Shown: positions 40,836 through 51,208 of the stretch, piece after piece
Layout of the letters: every line of letters begins with the position of its first letter
How positions within the stretch are numbered: position 1 is the stretch's first letter
Assembly (NCBI RefSeq): GCF_024609805.1
Contig: NZ_JANFVR010000001.1
Span: 1 to 60,122, forward strand
DNA: 60,122 nucleotides
Source of the DNA: Tahibacter caeni
Lineage (GTDB): Bacteria > Pseudomonadota > Gammaproteobacteria > Xanthomonadales > Rhodanobacteraceae
Direction: 5' to 3'
Translations under genes and position numbers: made by a program
Notes under the pieces: model-generated
The model's database searches: none
Seen by the model: the letters and a program-made list of their open reading frames with translations, nothing else
What the model was told of the DNA's origin: nothing

Positions 40836-41384
40836 TCAGCGGATTCGCGTATCCGTCGCGATCCAGTTGGTTTCCCAGGTCCTGCCGTCGTCGGCCGAGT
40901 AGGCCTGCTCGAAACGCGCGCTGTCGCGCGTGATCTCCGAAATCACGAAACGCACGCGGATCGGACGGCCGTCGAGCTCGTCGCGGCCGTGGAACTCGCC
41001 GCGGCCGTCGCGAAAAGCGCCGACGACCGGCGCCGTCAGCACGCCGCTGCGCAGGTTGGCGAAGTTCAGGCTCCACTGTTTCGCGGCCGGTTCGTAGAGC
41101 CGCAGGCTCACACCGTCTATGCGTCCCGACGCGCCTTCGATCGAAAGCTCGGCAACGTTCGAGCGTCCGCCGAGCAGCGGCCGGACGACCGTAGTGCCGC
41201 TGTACGCGATCCATTCCTGCGATCCCGACAGCGGCTTGGCGAGGCGCCGCACCTCGGTCTTCCAGGTGCCGAACTCGAAATCGAAATCCCGCTGCGCGTC
41301 CTGCGCCGCGACGGGCGTCAGGGCGAACACCGCGGCGAACAGCGCGCTGCCGCGTAGCAGCCGCATCGGCGAACGTCTCTGCAT
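40836..41384 (-). CDS. Secreted protein with a DUF1579-like domain
   Basis: The product is 182 aa. A signal peptide spans about residues 1-29 (RLLRGSALFAAVFALTPVAA). The mature part is beta-rich, with the FDFEFGTWKTEVRRL opening, EWIAYSGTTVVRPLLGGRSNV and DGVSLRLYEPAAKQWSLNFAN. This pattern is like DUF1579/lipocalin-type proteins (FxFxxGxW opening, then EGxSxxRPLLGG). The function is unknown. ATG 41384 with a GGAGG four bases upstream is preferred; ATG 41366 would also give a signal peptide. Confidence 0.7.
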   Translation of the reverse strand: MQRRSPMRLLRGSALFAAVFALTPVAAQDAQRDFDFEFGTWKTEVRRLAKPLSGSQEWIAYSGTTVVRPLLGGRSNVAELSIEGASGRIDGVSLRLYEPAAKQWSLNFANLRSGVLTAPVVGAFRDGRGEFHGRDELDGRPIRVRFVISEITRDSARFEQAYSADDGRTWETNWIATDTRIR

Positions 41385-41503
41385 GGAGCCTCCGGCATTG
41401 CGCATGACCGGCGGCGAGCTTGAAAGACCGCGACACTCCGGCGCAAGAGCCGTGGCTGGGCCCCTGGCCCGGCCGCGGCCGGACAGCCTGGCTCGGCCAG
41501 CGC

Positions 41504-41528
41504 CAACCGATTGGCAATCAATCGGTTG
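41504..41528. repeat. Palindrome next to the secreted-protein gene
   Basis: CAACCGATTG (41504-41513) and CAATCGGTTG (41519-41528) form a perfect 10-bp palindrome with a 5-base GCAAT loop. It lies 120 bases upstream of the gene at 40836-41384 (read on the minus strand) in the 331-bp gap at 41385-41715, which also holds an IS fragment. It could be an operator of the minus-strand gene or a relic of the mobile element. Confidence 0.4.
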
Positions 41529-41614
41529 CCACGGAATTGGATCCAGAACAAACGGGCAGGATGGCCCGGGGCGAATACCGTCGGCAGGCGGGGGCTGTCG
41601 TGAAACCGGCCGGC

Positions 41615-41710
41615 CGTACATTCACCGTGATCGACGGCTTCGCGCGCGATGCGCTGGACATCGAGATCGACTTCAGCGCCAGCGTCAGCGGCGGCCGCGC
41701 GGCGCGCGTT
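41615..41710 (+). pseudogene. Remnant of an IS3-family transposase (OrfB)
   Basis: The plus-strand frame reads RTFTVIDGFARDALDIEIDF and then SASVSGGRAARV. This matches the well-known segment of IS3-family OrfB proteins (RxFxVxDDFxRExLxIEVDxSLSGxRVxRV) that lies between the first and second catalytic acidic residues. Only about 32 residues are recognisable: the second Asp of the usual DDF is Gly here, upstream sequence degenerates, and the frame continues antisense into the end of the halogenase gene. It is therefore a decayed fragment. Inverted repeats of the element were not recognised. Confidence 0.6.
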
Positions 41711-41715
41711 CGCAC

Positions 41716-43272
41716 TCAGGCCGTCGCCCGCTGCGCGGTGCGGGATCCGGAGAGAACCTCGACGAGATCGCGGTGTGCAGGCAGGTCCCTGATGGCGTGC
41801 TGGCTGACGGCGCGCAGCATGGCGAATTCGCGACGCGCATCCTCGGCGCGCGGATAGCGTCCGCGCTGATCGCGCAGGTCGGTCCGGAATTCCATGCCGT
41901 AGAGAATGAACTGCCAGCTCGCCGGCATGAACATTTCCAGGTCGGTGACGAAGTCGAGACGGTGCGGTGGACGCCGGCGCCATTCGGCGAGGCGGTCGCG
42001 CAGCGACGGCGGAACGGTGGCCGTATCGGCGTTGTCGATCCAGAACGCGCTGTCGCGGCGCTGGGTCAGGCAGTAGTGAAGCTTGAGAAAATCGACGATG
42101 CGCGTGTAGCGCTCGCTCATCATGCGGTTGAAATGCGCCGCCGCGCGATCGAAGCAGGCGTCCATCGGCAGCAGGTGGGCGAGCAGATAGGTGCCCATCT
42201 CGATCAGACCGATGCCGGTCGCTTCGAGGGGCTCGAGGAAACCGGCCGAGAGTCCGATCGCCACGCAGTTGTGCCGCCACTGCACTCGCCGAAAACCGGT
42301 TTCAAACGGCAGGCGGCGCGCATTCAATCCCTGCGCCGCGGGACCGATGTACTGGCGCAGCACGGCTTCGGCGCGATCATCGCTGGTGTGCCGGCTCGAG
42401 TAGACGTAGCCGACGCCACGACGCTCCTGCAGGCCGATGTCCCAAGTCCAGCCGGCTTCGTGCGCGGTGGAGATCGTATGCGATGCGATGGGCGTGTCCG
42501 GACCTGCGTTGGGCACCTGGATGGCCACGGCGCGGTCGGCGAAGAGCACGTCGCTCACCGACTCGAGCGGCTGCCCGAGTGCCTTGCCGATCAGGGCCGC
42601 GCGCATGCCGGTGCAATCGACGTAGAGGTCGGCCTGCAGGGTGCCGATTTCCCGCGTGACGACGCCGGCGATCCCGCCGTTCGCGGCGAGCGTCACGTCG
42701 CAGATGGTCGCGAGCCGATGGTCGACGCCGAGTGCGCGCCCTTCCTCGGCGAGCAGCGCGGCGACCTTCATGGCATCGAAGTGGTAGGCGTAATTCATGG
42801 GCCCCTCGTAGTCGGGGTCCTGGCGACGCTTCGGCGCACGGCCGGCGCCGGCGACTGCGGCCTGCAAGGTCACCGCGTCGGCGAATGCCATGCCTTCGCC
42901 GGCATCGCCGAGCAGCCAGTAAGGGACCAGATCGAGTCCGTCGACGCGCGAACTGGGCAGGTTGAAGGGGTGGAAGTAATGATCGCGACCCGGTGAGCCC
43001 GCCGGCCGGACCCAGTCGACGAAGCGGATGCCCTGCTTGAAGGTGGCTTGGGTTTCGCGGATGAAGCGCGCCTCACTGATGCCGATCTGCGAGAGCGCGC
43101 CGCGGATCGACGGGAACGTGCCCTCGCCGACACCGAGGATGCCGATGTCGGGCGACTCGACGAGCTGGATGCGCACGCTCCCCGGTGACCGGATGTTGAG
43201 GGTCTTCGCCAAGTAGCAGGCGCACAGCCAGCCTGCCGTTCCGCCACCCGCGATCAATACGCTCCGCAGCAT
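41716..43272 (-). CDS. Flavin-dependent tryptophan-halogenase-like protein
   Basis: The product is 518 aa, the length of flavin-dependent halogenases (PrnA/RebH family). The FAD site is IAGGGTAGW at 7-15, and VGEGTFPSIRGALSQIGI follows. Lys79 in TFKQGIRFVDW aligns by motif and number with the catalytic Lys79 of PrnA and RebH. The WxWxIP motif is altered: residues 275-280 read WTWDIG. A GFLEPLEATGIGLIE segment near 345 is also family-typical. It is divergent from a TonB-dependent receptor, an arrangement often seen in xanthomonads and Caulobacter, and shares its operators. True substrate and halogenating activity are uncertain. The start is ATG 43272, which begins the FAD-binding strand. Confidence 0.85.
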   Translation of the reverse strand: MLRSVLIAGGGTAGWLCACYLAKTLNIRSPGSVRIQLVESPDIGILGVGEGTFPSIRGALSQIGISEARFIRETQATFKQGIRFVDWVRPAGSPGRDHYFHPFNLPSSRVDGLDLVPYWLLGDAGEGMAFADAVTLQAAVAGAGRAPKRRQDPDYEGPMNYAYHFDAMKVAALLAEEGRALGVDHRLATICDVTLAANGGIAGVVTREIGTLQADLYVDCTGMRAALIGKALGQPLESVSDVLFADRAVAIQVPNAGPDTPIASHTISTAHEAGWTWDIGLQERRGVGYVYSSRHTSDDRAEAVLRQYIGPAAQGLNARRLPFETGFRRVQWRHNCVAIGLSAGFLEPLEATGIGLIEMGTYLLAHLLPMDACFDRAAAHFNRMMSERYTRIVDFLKLHYCLTQRRDSAFWIDNADTATVPPSLRDRLAEWRRRPPHRLDFVTDLEMFMPASWQFILYGMEFRTDLRDQRGRYPRAEDARREFAMLRAVSQHAIRDLPAHRDLVEVLSGSRTAQRATA

Positions 43273-43341: not shown

Positions 43342-43355
43342 TGACTGCGCTGTCA
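43342..43355. promoter_or_regulatory. LacI-type operator, box 1
   Basis: TGACTGCGCTGTCA, a near-perfect palindrome with central GC. It is 70 bases upstream of the halogenase ATG (minus strand). It matches the other two boxes at 12 or more of 14 positions. Confidence 0.75.
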
Positions 43356-43385: not shown

Positions 43386-43399
43386 TGACAGCGCTATCA
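43386..43399. promoter_or_regulatory. LacI-type operator, box 2
   Basis: TGACAGCGCTATCA, the second copy, centred 44 bases from box 1. The consensus TGACAGCGCTGTCA fits the general LacI-family pattern with a central CG/GC core. Confidence 0.75.
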
Positions 43400-43408
43400 A
43401 TTTTCGAT

Positions 43409-43422
43409 TGACAGCGCTGCCA
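43409..43422. promoter_or_regulatory. LacI-type operator, box 3
   Basis: TGACAGCGCTGCCA, the third copy, 23 bases from box 2. Its left end overlaps a TTGACA hexamer (43408-43413), a possible -35 element for the receptor gene. It lies 86 bases upstream of the receptor ATG. Confidence 0.75.
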
Positions 43423-46160: not shown

Positions 46161-47684
<1,524 letters not shown>

Positions 47685-47786: not shown

Positions 47787-49172
47787 ATGAACGCAATTCC
47801 TCTCGCGGCACATCCGGAGCGGCTGCCGACGCGACGCTACCTCGGCTATGGCCTCGGCGATTTCGCCTTCAATTTCTACTGGCTGCCGCTGCAGGTCTTT
47901 CTTCTCAAGTACTACACCGACGTGCTCGGCCTCGACAGCGGCGCGGCCGGCATCATCGTCATGATCTGCCTGATCTGGGACGGCCTGGTCGATCCGCTGA
48001 TAGGCATCGTCGCCAACAAGACGCGCACGCGCTTCGGACGCTATCGCCCGTACATGCTGTTCGGCGCGGTTCCGCTGGCCGTGACCTTCAGCTTCGTGTT
48101 CCTGCCGGTGCCGTTCCACGATACCGCCCTGGTCGTGTATGCGCTGGTGACCCAGCTCTTGTTCCGCACGGTCTACGCCGCCGTCAACATCCCCTACGGC
48201 GCCATGATGGCGTCGATGACACGTGACTCGATGGAGCGAAACTGGCTGGCCGGCGCGCGCATGCTGTTCGCCTTCAGCGGCTCGGCCGTGGTCGGCTTTG
48301 CGACGCCGCGGCTGGTGGCATGGATCGGCATCGGCAGTCCCGACTCGGCCTATTTCTGGTCGGCGGCGATCCTGTCGTCGCTCGCGACCCTGATCATCTT
48401 CGCCAGCTACGGGTTGACCGAGGAACGCCTCGAAACGGTCGCCGAGCAGCAGGCTCATCCGCCGCTGGGCGTACTGCTGCGCATGCTGGCCAAGAACACG
48501 CCTTTCCTGCAGGCGGCCGCGGCGATCGCCCTGTTCGGATTCGCCAGCACGGTCACCAGCGCGAGCCTGCCCTACTTCGTGCAGTACTACATGCGCGGCG
48601 AGCCGACCATGACCGGCGACCTCGCCAGCATGATCCCGTTCGTGCAGATGCTGGCGATCCTGCCGTGGACGCTGATCAGCCGCCATACCGGCAAGCGGGC
48701 GGCGTGGATCATCGGCCTGCTCGTCGCAACGGCCGCGCTCGGCGTGCTGATTCTGGTCGACAGACCCGATCCGACCACGGTGTTCGTGCTGGTCGCGGTC
48801 ACCGCGTTCGGCTCGGCCGCGATCGCCGTCAACTTCTGGTCGATCGTGCCGGACACGGTCGAATACGGCGAGTGGCGATCCGGCGTGCGCGTCGAGGGGT
48901 TCGTGTTCGGCCTGGTCACCCTGATCCAGAAGTCGGCGCTCGGCCTTTCCTCCGCCTTCGTCGGCCTTTATCTGGTCTGGATCGGCTACGTGCCGAACCA
49001 GGAACAGGCGCCGTCGACGGTCGAGGGACTCCGGTACCTGTTCACGCTGTTCCCGATGTTCGGCATGCTCGCCTCGTGTGCGGTCATGCTGTTCTACCGG
49101 CTGGACGCCGGCACGCACGCGCGGCTGGTCGCCGAAATCGCCGCACGCGCGCCGGTGCGATCCGCTCCATGA
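47787..49172 (+). CDS. GPH-family sugar:cation symporter
   Basis: The product is 461 aa with 12 hydrophobic segments and the features of the glycoside-pentoside-hexuronide (MelB-like) branch of the MFS: YGLGDFAFNFYWLPLQVFLLKYYTDVLG at the N-terminus, WDGLVDPLIGIVANKTRTRFGRYRPYMLFGA with the conserved Asp and Arg, and NIPYGAMMASMTRDSMER. The C-terminal part contains DTVEYGEWRSGVRVEGFVFGLVTLIQKSALG, a typical GPH signature. It should bring beta-glucosides into the cytoplasm with Na+ or H+. It lies 102 bases after the glucosidase gene. Confidence 0.92.
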   Translation: MNAIPLAAHPERLPTRRYLGYGLGDFAFNFYWLPLQVFLLKYYTDVLGLDSGAAGIIVMICLIWDGLVDPLIGIVANKTRTRFGRYRPYMLFGAVPLAVTFSFVFLPVPFHDTALVVYALVTQLLFRTVYAAVNIPYGAMMASMTRDSMERNWLAGARMLFAFSGSAVVGFATPRLVAWIGIGSPDSAYFWSAAILSSLATLIIFASYGLTEERLETVAEQQAHPPLGVLLRMLAKNTPFLQAAAAIALFGFASTVTSASLPYFVQYYMRGEPTMTGDLASMIPFVQMLAILPWTLISRHTGKRAAWIIGLLVATAALGVLILVDRPDPTTVFVLVAVTAFGSAAIAVNFWSIVPDTVEYGEWRSGVRVEGFVFGLVTLIQKSALGLSSAFVGLYLVWIGYVPNQEQAPSTVEGLRYLFTLFPMFGMLASCAVMLFYRLDAGTHARLVAEIAARAPVRSAP

Positions 49173-49254: not shown

Positions 49255-50280
49255 ATGAGCAAGGCGATCATCGACGATGTGGCGGCCAGGGCGGGCGTGT
49301 CGATCAAGACCGTCTCCCGCGTCGTCAATCGCGAACCCAACGTCAGGCAACGGACGCGCGAGCGAGTCGAGGCGGCGATCGCCGAGCTCAACTACCGGCC
49401 GCGACTGTCAGCGCGCAGCCTCGCCGCCAATCGCTCCTTCATGCTCGGCCTGATCTACGGCAAGCCCGGTGCTCACTATGTGCTCGACATCCAGGAGGGC
49501 GTGCTCGAGATGTGCCGGCCGCACGGTTACGAGCTCGTCATCCATCCGGGCGAGTTTCGCGATGGCGATCTGGCCGATGAAATCTCCGAGCTGATTCTCG
49601 ACCGGCGCATCGACGGCGTGCTGCTGTCGCCCCCCATCTCCGACCACATGGAGGCGATCGCATTGCTCAAGGACGCCGGCATTCCGCTGGTCCGGATCGC
49701 ACCGACCGTCGACAAGGCCGCGCACCCGTTCGTCGAGACGAACGATCTCGACGCCTCGTTCGACCTGACCGAAGTGCTGATCGGCCTCGGCCACCGCCGC
49801 ATCGGCTTCATCACCGGCCATCCCGATCACCGCGCTGTCGGCTTGCGTTTCGAGGGCTATCGCAAGGCCCTGCGCGCGAACGGCATCGCCTTCCAGGGCG
49901 AGCTGGTGGCGGTCGGCGACAACCTCTTTCATGCCGGTGAGGAGGGCGCGCGCCAGTTGCTGAAACTGGCGTCGCCGCCGACGGCGATCTTCGCCGCCAA
50001 CGACGAGATGGCCGGCGGCGTGATCAAGACGGCGCTCGTCCACGGTCTGCGCATCCCCGAACAGCTTTCCGTGGTCGGCTTCGACGATGCGCCGATTTCG
50101 CGCCAGGTCTGGCCGTCGATCAGCACGATCCAGCAGCCGATCCGCGACATGGCCAAGACCGCGACCAGCATCCTGCTCGAGCAGTTGCGTGCCGGCGAGT
50201 CCGAGCAGCATCCGAGCATGCATCCGGCCCGGCTCGTGCTGCGCGAATCGATCGCGCCGCCACCGTCCGGCAAAGCCTGA
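49255..50280 (+). CDS. LacI-family transcriptional regulator
   Basis: The product is 341 aa. The helix-turn-helix is IIDDVAARAGVSIKTVSRVVN at about 4-24, with the hinge helix ending RLSARSLAANRS. The ligand-binding domain runs from about 62, with LIGLGHRRIGFITG, FEGYRKALRANGI, IFAANDEMAGGVIKTA and VVGFDDAPISRQVWPSISTIQQP. GGAGG precedes ATG 49255. A TATACAAT stretch at about 49209-49216 may be its own -10 region. It is the likely protein that binds the three TGACAGCGCTGTCA boxes at 43342-43422. The inducer is probably a product of the glucosidase. Confidence 0.95.
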   Translation: MSKAIIDDVAARAGVSIKTVSRVVNREPNVRQRTRERVEAAIAELNYRPRLSARSLAANRSFMLGLIYGKPGAHYVLDIQEGVLEMCRPHGYELVIHPGEFRDGDLADEISELILDRRIDGVLLSPPISDHMEAIALLKDAGIPLVRIAPTVDKAAHPFVETNDLDASFDLTEVLIGLGHRRIGFITGHPDHRAVGLRFEGYRKALRANGIAFQGELVAVGDNLFHAGEEGARQLLKLASPPTAIFAANDEMAGGVIKTALVHGLRIPEQLSVVGFDDAPISRQVWPSISTIQQPIRDMAKTATSILLEQLRAGESEQHPSMHPARLVLRESIAPPPSGKA

Positions 50281-50284
50281 ACCC

Positions 50285-51208
50285 GTGGCGACCCGGATCA
50301 TCGCCAGTTTCGACATCGGCGGCGCCAACATGCGCGCGGCCGTCGTCGCCGTGGACGGCCGCCGTGCGGAAGTGCTCGAACAGCAGCGCCGGCCGACACC
50401 CAGCCACCTGCTCGTCCCGGAAGTCACCGCGCAGGAGCGGCTCGACGACGTGATCGGCTTCATGGTGGCATTCGCCGACCAGGCCCGTCGGCGTGTGGGA
50501 GCCGATGCCGTGGCCGCGGCCTTTCCCGGTCCGCTCGATGCACAAGGGCGCGTCGCCGCCCTGCCGACCCTGTGGGGCAGCGAAGGCGCGAGTCTGTGCC
50601 CGCTGGCGCTCGACCTTCTGCTCGCCGGGCGACTGCAGGACATGCCGGTGCGCATCTACAACGACGTCAGCGCGGCCGGTTTCCGCTTCGTCGCCGAGCA
50701 TCCCGATTTCGCCCTGTTCACGCTCGGAAGCGGCGTCGGCCTCAAGGTGTTCATCAACGGCCAGCCCCAGGTGGGCCCGCACGGCCGCGGCGGCGAACTG
50801 ACCCACATGGTCTTCGACAGGTCGGCCGACGCCCCGACGTGCGACTGCGGCGGTCGCGGCCATCTGGGTGCACTGGCGTCCGGTCGCGCCTGGCAGCGCC
50901 GGATCGGACACGCCGCCGCGGGCGACGGCGCCGCGGTCGAACTCGACGCCTTCGCCGAGCCGCTGGCGCGAGCGGTCGCCATGATCCACTACACGCTCGG
51001 CATGGAAAGGTTCCTGTTCGCCGGCGGCCTGGCCGAAGGGCTCGGCGAACCGCTGCGCGCGGCGATCGTCCGGTGCCTTCCCGGGCAGGGCTGGCAGCAG
51101 GGGCAGAACTGGGACGCGATGATCCGGCTCGCTCCGGCCGACGATTCGCATGCGCTGATCGGCGGCGCGCTCGCACTTGCCGGCGAACCGGCACCTGCCG
51201 CCGGCTGA
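50285..51208 (+). CDS. ROK-family sugar kinase, divergent
   Basis: The product is 307 aa. The ATP phosphate loop is SFDIGGANMRAA at 8-19, and the catalytic base is Asp127 in IYNDVSAAG. GSGVGLKVFINGQ near 148-160 and GGELTHM (His174) are family motifs. The zinc motif is altered: Cys186-x-Cys188-Gly and His193 in CDCGGRGHLGALASG, where most ROK kinases have CxCGxxGCxE. It probably phosphorylates glucose released by the glucosidase. Start is GTG 50285, four bases after the LacI stop; the frame is open further upstream without a better start. No neighbour has glucokinase-type sequence, so this may replace it for this pathway. Confidence 0.8.
   Translation: MATRIIASFDIGGANMRAAVVAVDGRRAEVLEQQRRPTPSHLLVPEVTAQERLDDVIGFMVAFADQARRRVGADAVAAAFPGPLDAQGRVAALPTLWGSEGASLCPLALDLLLAGRLQDMPVRIYNDVSAAGFRFVAEHPDFALFTLGSGVGLKVFINGQPQVGPHGRGGELTHMVFDRSADAPTCDCGGRGHLGALASGRAWQRRIGHAAAGDGAAVELDAFAEPLARAVAMIHYTLGMERFLFAGGLAEGLGEPLRAAIVRCLPGQGWQQGQNWDAMIRLAPADDSHALIGGALALAGEPAPAAG

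Follow-up and report, generated by a model that had tools for sequence, protein, structure and literature searches.

A PF04820 halogenase-type flavoenzyme paired with a TonB-dependent receptor in a predicted beta-glucoside uptake locus of Tahibacter caeni

The window, a stretch of 60,122 nucleotides of Tahibacter caeni DNA, carries a gene for a halogenase-type flavoenzyme and, divergent from it, a plus-strand row of genes for a TonB-dependent receptor, a GH1 beta-glucosidase, a GPH-family symporter, a LacI-family regulator and an ROK-family kinase (Table 1). The initial annotation, made from the letters of the sequence, had placed a halogenase-like ORF in a sugar locus opposite a TonB receptor. 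The ORF was intact, on the minus strand (no strand had been given), and the profile matches of the neighbors agreed with the proposed setting. The plus-strand row reads as a set of genes for the import and use of a glucose-containing sugar. No genes for aromatic breakdown were indicated within this row, and no secondary-metabolite genes were found among the six window neighbors scanned. The 261-aa ORF downstream of the halogenase (40836-41621) had no Pfam match at E 0.001.

The combination characteristic of a TonB-receptor carbohydrate utilization (CUT) locus is present here: a receptor, an inner-membrane transporter for sugars, a glycosidase and a regulator. The CUT loci of Xanthomonas campestris, e.g., sux (PMC1790865), have the same combination of receptor, inner-membrane transporter, glycosidase and LacI regulator; the window locus differs in having, in addition, a gene for a halogenase-type enzyme that shares the control region, and the word "halogenase" is absent from the main text of the X. 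campestris paper. Among the matches listed in the open-access literature (PMC11337851 and PMC1790865 included), which leaves most subscription papers outside its scope, none was a paper on the pairing of receptor and halogenase.

Table 1. Genes, protein motifs and operator-like sites of the halogenase-receptor locus in the window
Feature	Position	Strand	Basis or remark
Halogenase-type flavoenzyme, PF04820, 518 aa	41716..43272	-	Intact ORF and profile match
FLEPLE, residues 345-350; E350 aligns with PrnA E346	42223..42240	-	Fits FX[DE]PX[EFL] halogenase motif
WTWDIG, residues 275-280, at WxWxIP position, P replaced by G	42433..42450	-	Alignment with PrnA
K79 codon, aligns with PrnA K79, context ATFKQGIRF	43036..43038	-	Alignment via L031; K in 111/113 rows
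FAD-binding motif GGGTAGW, residues 9-15	43228..43248	-	G9, G10, G11, A13, G14 and W15 invariant in 47 rows
Operator-like palindrome TGACTGCGCTGTCA, 1 mismatch	43342..43355	.	Palindrome scan
Operator-like palindrome TGACAGCGCTATCA, 1 mismatch	43386..43399	.	Palindrome scan
Operator-like palindrome TGACAGCGCTGCCA, 1 mismatch	43409..43422	.	Palindrome scan
TonB-dependent receptor, 812 aa	43508..45946	+	PF00593, PF07715
GH1 beta-glucosidase	46299..47684	+	PF00232; TIGR03356 over cut-off; start codon chosen by eye
GPH-family sugar symporter	47787..49172	+	PF13347; TIGR00792 over cut-off
LacI-family regulator	49255..50280	+	PF00356, PF13377
ROK-family sugar kinase ORF	50087..51208	+	PF00480 at residues 74-364; start probably past lacI stop, near 50290

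In the Pfam profile search, the 518-aa protein matched PF04820 with 435.9 bits against a curated cut-off of 21, in agreement with its first reading as a halogenase-type flavoenzyme. The FAD motif noted there was found as well, and its part GGGTAG (residues 9-14) represents the GxGxxG motif of PF04820 halogenases. Because this motif begins at residue 9, no signal peptide is expected and the enzyme is presumably cytosolic. At E 0.001, no aromatic-hydroxylase Pfam family was matched; the only matches were PF04820 and a below-cut-off DAO. The dN/dS of the gene against six orthologues was about 0.10-0.16, so the protein is maintained under purifying selection. Weaker PF04820 matches were present at two more places in the window's own genome (G000:C205:598-1641 and G000:C57:22356-23015).

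The numbering of PrnA was reached via a bridge sequence from the same bacterial family, the PrnA-like halogenase L031, which matches PrnA with 762 bits. Residues K79, H101, F103, E350 and H399 correspond to PrnA K79, H101, F103, E346 and H395, the tryptophans W275 and W277 to W272 and W274, and G280 to P277. The PrnA E346 position was checked on 2JKC, an E346D entry, which shows D there. The earlier proposal that Lys79 takes the position of the catalytic lysine of PrnA was borne out by this alignment. K79, E350, W275, W277 and I279 were invariant in 47 aligned rows, and the two rows devoid of the catalytic Lys among 113 (query included) were degenerate paralogues. The motif around E350 is another halogenase mark, which PMC8407142 attributes to Lewis and coworkers. 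From the Fx.Px.Sx.G motif, F, P and G are present, and the position of S is taken by A351; S occurred in 30 and A in 13 of 43 rows, these being the 47-row alignment minus the bridge L031, which was used in full, and minus the truncated or divergent L033, L034 and L113. The bridge halogenase itself, found in L031 and L137 (same region of genome G009), is PrnA/RebH-like, reads GWTWKIPM and adjoins a 2247-aa NRPS ORF (Condensation, AMP-binding and PP-binding), which is likely a halogenated-peptide cluster in the same bacterial family.

A structure model, proposed as a check in the initial annotation, had a mean pLDDT of 93.7 and superposed on known halogenases with Z 47.6-52.2: AbeH (52.2, rmsd 1.9), Xcc4156 (51.4), 9LTB (50.9, rmsd 1.4), 9LU2 (50.7, rmsd 1.5), 2PYX (49.9), BrvH (48.7) and PrnA (47.6), with MibH following at 41.4. 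In both fold comparisons, all 50 of 50 rows among the matches listed were halogenase entries, with Foldseek TM by query length of 0.86-0.92. The best solved relatives by sequence were 2PYX (403 bits), 9LTB (401) and 9LU2 (372), then Tar14 (6NSD) and AbeH (8FOV). Entry 2PYX, tryptophan halogenase YP_750003.1 of Shewanella frigidimarina, was the best match both by sequence, at about 40% identity, and by Foldseek; it is a structural-genomics entry, referred to as an unnamed halogenase from unpublished work in the relevant part of PMC7336383, and no assay of it was found in the open-access literature searched, as far as its text was accessible. The putative tryptophan halogenases 9LTB (Altererythrobacter sp. 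S1-5) and 9LU2 (Pseudoalteromonas sp. L11-2), released in 2026, have the same fold and the catalytic Lys in FKQG; no paper on them was found in the open-access literature searched. BrvH (6FRL, Brevundimonas) and Xcc4156 (6Y1W, Xanthomonas) share the family and fold. BrvH, a brominating enzyme by preference according to the title of PMC5945002, retains WxWxIP, and its halide site carries T-S (PMC5945002), whereas the window enzyme has WTWDIG and T352-G353.

The catalytic Lys, Glu and two shielding Trp of PrnA, which together with RebH represents the tryptophan 7-halogenases, align with the window halogenase, but PrnA Y443, Y444 and W455 have no counterpart in it. These three residues, which we take to be the ones gripping the amino-acid part of free tryptophan, fell into gaps in 43 of 43 rows, the 518-aa protein included. 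The aromatic shelf is retained as H101, F103 and F448 (PrnA F454). Since the lid positions are gapped and the shelf is kept, the pocket appears to be that of a halogenase without a free-tryptophan lid of the PrnA/RebH type, and we infer that its target is aromatic but is not free tryptophan.

The motif WTWDIG was present at the WxWxIP position, as had been noticed from the sequence, with both W and the I kept and P to G as the sole change. The accompanying statement that WxWxIP is conserved in the known halogenases did not hold: 2PYX (GWIWDIGL), 9LTB (GWLWDIAL) and 9LU2 (GWIWDIAL) deviate from it, the former with the same WxWDIG as the window enzyme and the latter two with A in place of G at the proline position, and WxWxIP or its variants are reported absent from several halogenases in the accessible text of PMC8407142. 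In a tally of 113 rows, which includes the query and a few loci entered twice, the motif read GWTWDIGL in 73 rows, GWIWDIGL in 20, GWVWDIGL in 2, and GWTWDIAL and GWIWNIGL in one each; 13 rows had IP, one had GWRWHIAL, and two were degenerate. In a tree of 119 thinned rows computed by a quick method, from which 2PYX, 9LTB and 9LU2 were left out, 69 WxWxI(G/A) rows with G and one with A formed one clade of 70 (SH-aLRT 99), and the other A row was placed elsewhere.

Judged from the aligned rows, WTWDIG is thus a clade signature and not peculiar to this halogenase, and it says little about monooxygenation. The initial annotation had suggested that the enzyme may be a monooxygenase; here the loss of the proline would open the shield and the peroxyflavin would hydroxylate the substrate directly. 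WxWxIP has indeed been proposed to bar the substrate from the flavin and so to prevent hydroxylation (PMC8407142 and PMC10696468, in the parts available), and the sixth residue here is G. The roles of certain WxWxIP residues are called unclear in a passage of the review PMC10696468. Against the monooxygenase reading, the shielding tryptophans, the isoleucine and the catalytic Lys/Glu are among the invariant residues listed above, only P to G differs and does so clade-wide, the best fold matches are halogenases and the aromatic-hydroxylase search was negative. The exchange of P for G by itself does not convert a halogenase-type enzyme to a monooxygenase. Since the exchange characterizes the whole clade and is seen in 2PYX too, the motif alone was dismissed as evidence for a monooxygenase, and direct hydroxylation is considered quite unlikely. 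In the open-access literature searched, to the extent that its text was available and with most subscription papers outside its scope, no published assay of any member of the WxWDIG clade was found. Separately, tandem arrays of PF04820 genes lacking GWxWxI were observed, two in L121 (L121:9662-11287) and three in L122 (L122:8338-9972) and L124 (L124:9393-10940); in related rows of L023 and L024, the catalytic Lys is replaced by R or S, and these tandem-array proteins are possibly non-catalytic partners.

Between halogenase and receptor, the palindrome TGACAGCGCTGTCA occurs in three copies with one mismatch each; at this threshold the window holds no others, and none arose in 100 shuffles. The LacI-type operators said at first reading to be shared by the two genes are therefore present as predicted sites. 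The surroundings of the gene were compared in 81 loci, i.e., the best 80 of 267 confirmed relatives plus the window. Sites of TGACAGCGCTGTCA with at most two mismatches numbered 59 in 34,020 bases upstream of the halogenase versus 20 in 1,552,347 bases elsewhere. A second palindrome type, TGAAAWCGWTTTCA, was found 67 times upstream of the halogenase and 35 times elsewhere; the former type was present upstream in 31 loci and the latter in 42 others, so that one of them occurred in 73 of 81 loci and both in none. The LacI gene was found, within the stretch examined, in 23 of 25 long loci with TGACAGCGCTGTCA versus 16 of 34 with TGAAAWCGWTTTCA.

Genome scans for TGACAGCGCTGTCA with at most one mismatch gave two places each in G027 and G510, both single-contig genomes, each of them no farther than about 3 kb from the receptor, four in G481 (three at the locus), five in G592 and four in the window's own genome (three in the window), compared with 0-1 occurrences per genome for the control pattern read backwards. 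The two genes are separated in two genomes, lying megabases apart in G592 and on different contigs in G594. The separated halogenase of G592 (match start 608827) has an exact site 75 bp before it, at 608752, which is the sole exact site away from the receptor; the other site away from it is a one-mismatch copy at 1660351. An exact site also lies about 85 bp upstream of the separated gene in G594, and hence both separated genomes (2/2) have one. When a gene located elsewhere still carries a rare operator, this argues strongly that it belongs to the regulon; the palindrome is presumably bound by the encoded LacI.

The receptor was divergent from and adjoining the halogenase in 78 of 81 loci (exceptions L078, L081 and L107), as judged from strand and distance of stop-to-stop ORFs. 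In the 65 loci longer than 20 kb, GH1 was found in 41, GH3 in 11, either of them in 52, and a LacI gene in 45. Exop_C domains were detected in four GH3 proteins near the receptor; in L197, L201, L228 and L230, a GH3 glycosidase with Exop_C lies near the same receptor type and no GH1 was found in these stretches, an exchange of the enzyme around a constant receptor. In G020, G027 and G510 of the same family, the halogenase is downstream of the receptor on the same strand.

Within the 233 genomes of the window's family, the receptor was detected in 85 (E 1e-120) and the halogenase in 76 (E 1e-150), and all 76 halogenase-bearing genomes also carry the receptor; owing to the kinship of the family's genomes, the 76 cases cannot be counted as independent. 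Nine genomes had the receptor only. In two of them, G519 and G601, the halogenase is cut by a contig end. G034 retains a remnant with 42 matching residues (L197:10243-10617) directly 3' of an intact receptor, an apparent loss in progress, and in G007, G499-G502 and G597 no halogenase was found near the receptor or genome-wide at E 1e-150. Uptake therefore does not strictly need the halogenase, given these seven genomes with a receptor and no intact halogenase. They would also fit a passenger gene that travels with the receptor locus and plays no part in it, but the separated copies keep their operator, every halogenase-bearing genome has the receptor and dN/dS is about 0.1, which makes a passenger very improbable. 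The class-wide sample of 369 genomes contained no other receptor orthologue at E 1e-120, and six genomes beside the window's own had sister-group halogenases with 42-46% identity (E 1e-100). Mirror-tree correlation was 0.83 for halogenase and receptor (75 loci) and 0.72 for halogenase and GH1 (50 loci), with partial correlations of 0.40 and 0.37, respectively, on 47 loci that do not separate the two pairings.

The wider family was sampled in 40 stretches around non-orthologous relatives, drawn from a longer list. A receptor was located at most 800 bp from the halogenase-type gene in 23 of 40 stretches and at most 1.6 kb from it in 25, and the receptor profile of the window's clade matched no receptor in any of the 40. 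The receptor-type matches among 32 scanned ORFs were to PF00593 (16), TIGR01782 (10) and PF25183 (6), where the assignment of matches to ORFs and the other nine receptors are inferred from clusters and several of the 32 ORFs were wrong choices. Sugar genes near these halogenases included GH97 in L147 and GH3 in L116; pullulanases adjoin the halogenase in L131 and L152, in which no receptor was confirmed. A module of a PF25183-type receptor and a QWRIP halogenase was seen in L130, L133, L134, L138 and L139, as far as scanned with a PF10091 enzyme in L130, L133 and L134 and ABC sugar-transport parts in L130, L134, L138 and L139. Across the 40 stretches, the most often shared element is the receptor rather than one sugar.

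These surroundings bear on the possible target of the enzyme. One candidate, also put forward in the initial annotation, is an aromatic aglycone, or an aryl beta-glucoside entering via the receptor and cut by the beta-glucosidase, a reading that overlaps the explanation favored below and names its target. The frequency of GH1 or GH3 in the long loci and the aromatic-binding H101, F103 and F448 in the pocket speak for it. The gene row, however, ends in an ROK kinase, none of its genes indicates aromatic breakdown, and other PF04820 subclades lie beside other receptor types with GH97 (L147) or with PF10091 and ABC transport (L130 and L134), neighbors with which no aromatic aglycone would be expected. 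An aglycone target is possible but doubtful.

Another candidate, which likewise names a target within the favored explanation, is a protein: before export, the TonB receptor or some other exported protein would have one of its aromatic side chains halogenated or oxidized by the enzyme. The lack of the free-tryptophan lid and co-inheritance with one receptor are consistent with this, as is the fold shared with MibH, a peptide-tryptophan halogenase whose substrate is a peptide (PMC5945002, in the part available). In sister loci, receptor-halogenase pairs are joined by Cupin_8, SapC or DUF6445 genes, found in 8, 4 and 2 of the 40 non-orthologous loci, respectively, but each in 0 of 81 loci of the window's clade. 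The receptors themselves were compared in 116 halogenase-locus rows, with some loci entered twice and the two rows from separated-gene genomes kept apart. Aromatic residues with at least 95% conservation across these rows were all kept in the seven rows from genomes without an intact halogenase; at 13 sites conserved in at least 95%, at least one of the seven differed, and 0 of 13 were aromatic. This comparison weakens the idea of protein modification but does not kill it, and we regard it as rather unlikely. In a broader form, the enzyme would belong to a group of several modifiers linked to receptors (halogenase-type, Cupin_8, SapC and DUF6445) and maturing Gram-negative sugar receptors by side-chain halogenation or oxidation before export; this is less likely still, and no such class of receptor-linked outer-membrane protein modification was found in the open-access literature searched. 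As a separate observation, L115, L116, L117 and L153 bring together a TIGR01782-type TonB receptor, a halogenase-type gene, SapC (PF07277) and Cupin_8 (PF13621); in L115-L117, a WxWDIG halogenase is paired with a QWRIP halogenase, and L117 also has DUF6445.

On balance we favor, with a little more than even confidence, a halogenase-type enzyme that is dedicated to a small LacI-controlled beta-glucoside-uptake regulon and whose target is aromatic but is not free tryptophan. The regulon would comprise the halogenase, TonB receptor, beta-glucosidase, symporter, LacI and ROK kinase, with the encoded LacI controlling halogenase and receptor. FADH2 from a separate reductase would react with O2 and halide, HOX would travel to K79/E350, and an electron-rich aromatic near H101, F103 and F448 would be halogenated in the pocket lacking the tryptophan lid of PrnA. 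Either an aromatic molecule that the receptor lets in or one of the uptake system's own proteins may be the target. The analyses do not distinguish halogenation from other uses of HOX or of the peroxyflavin.

The proline of WxWxIP is an unreliable mark for telling a halogenase from a monooxygenase. Halogenase-type genes without an assigned substrate occur in many proteobacterial genomes; here one halogenase clade is tied by neighborhood, co-occurrence and operator to a single receptor. The regulon is small, as all sites found in two single-contig genomes lie at the halogenase-receptor locus. As the pairing holds across many related bacteria, the halogenase probably has a dedicated job in the receptor/beta-glucosidase uptake system, and the question of what these enzymes are for is narrowed to one locus with a likely inducer class, β-glucosides.
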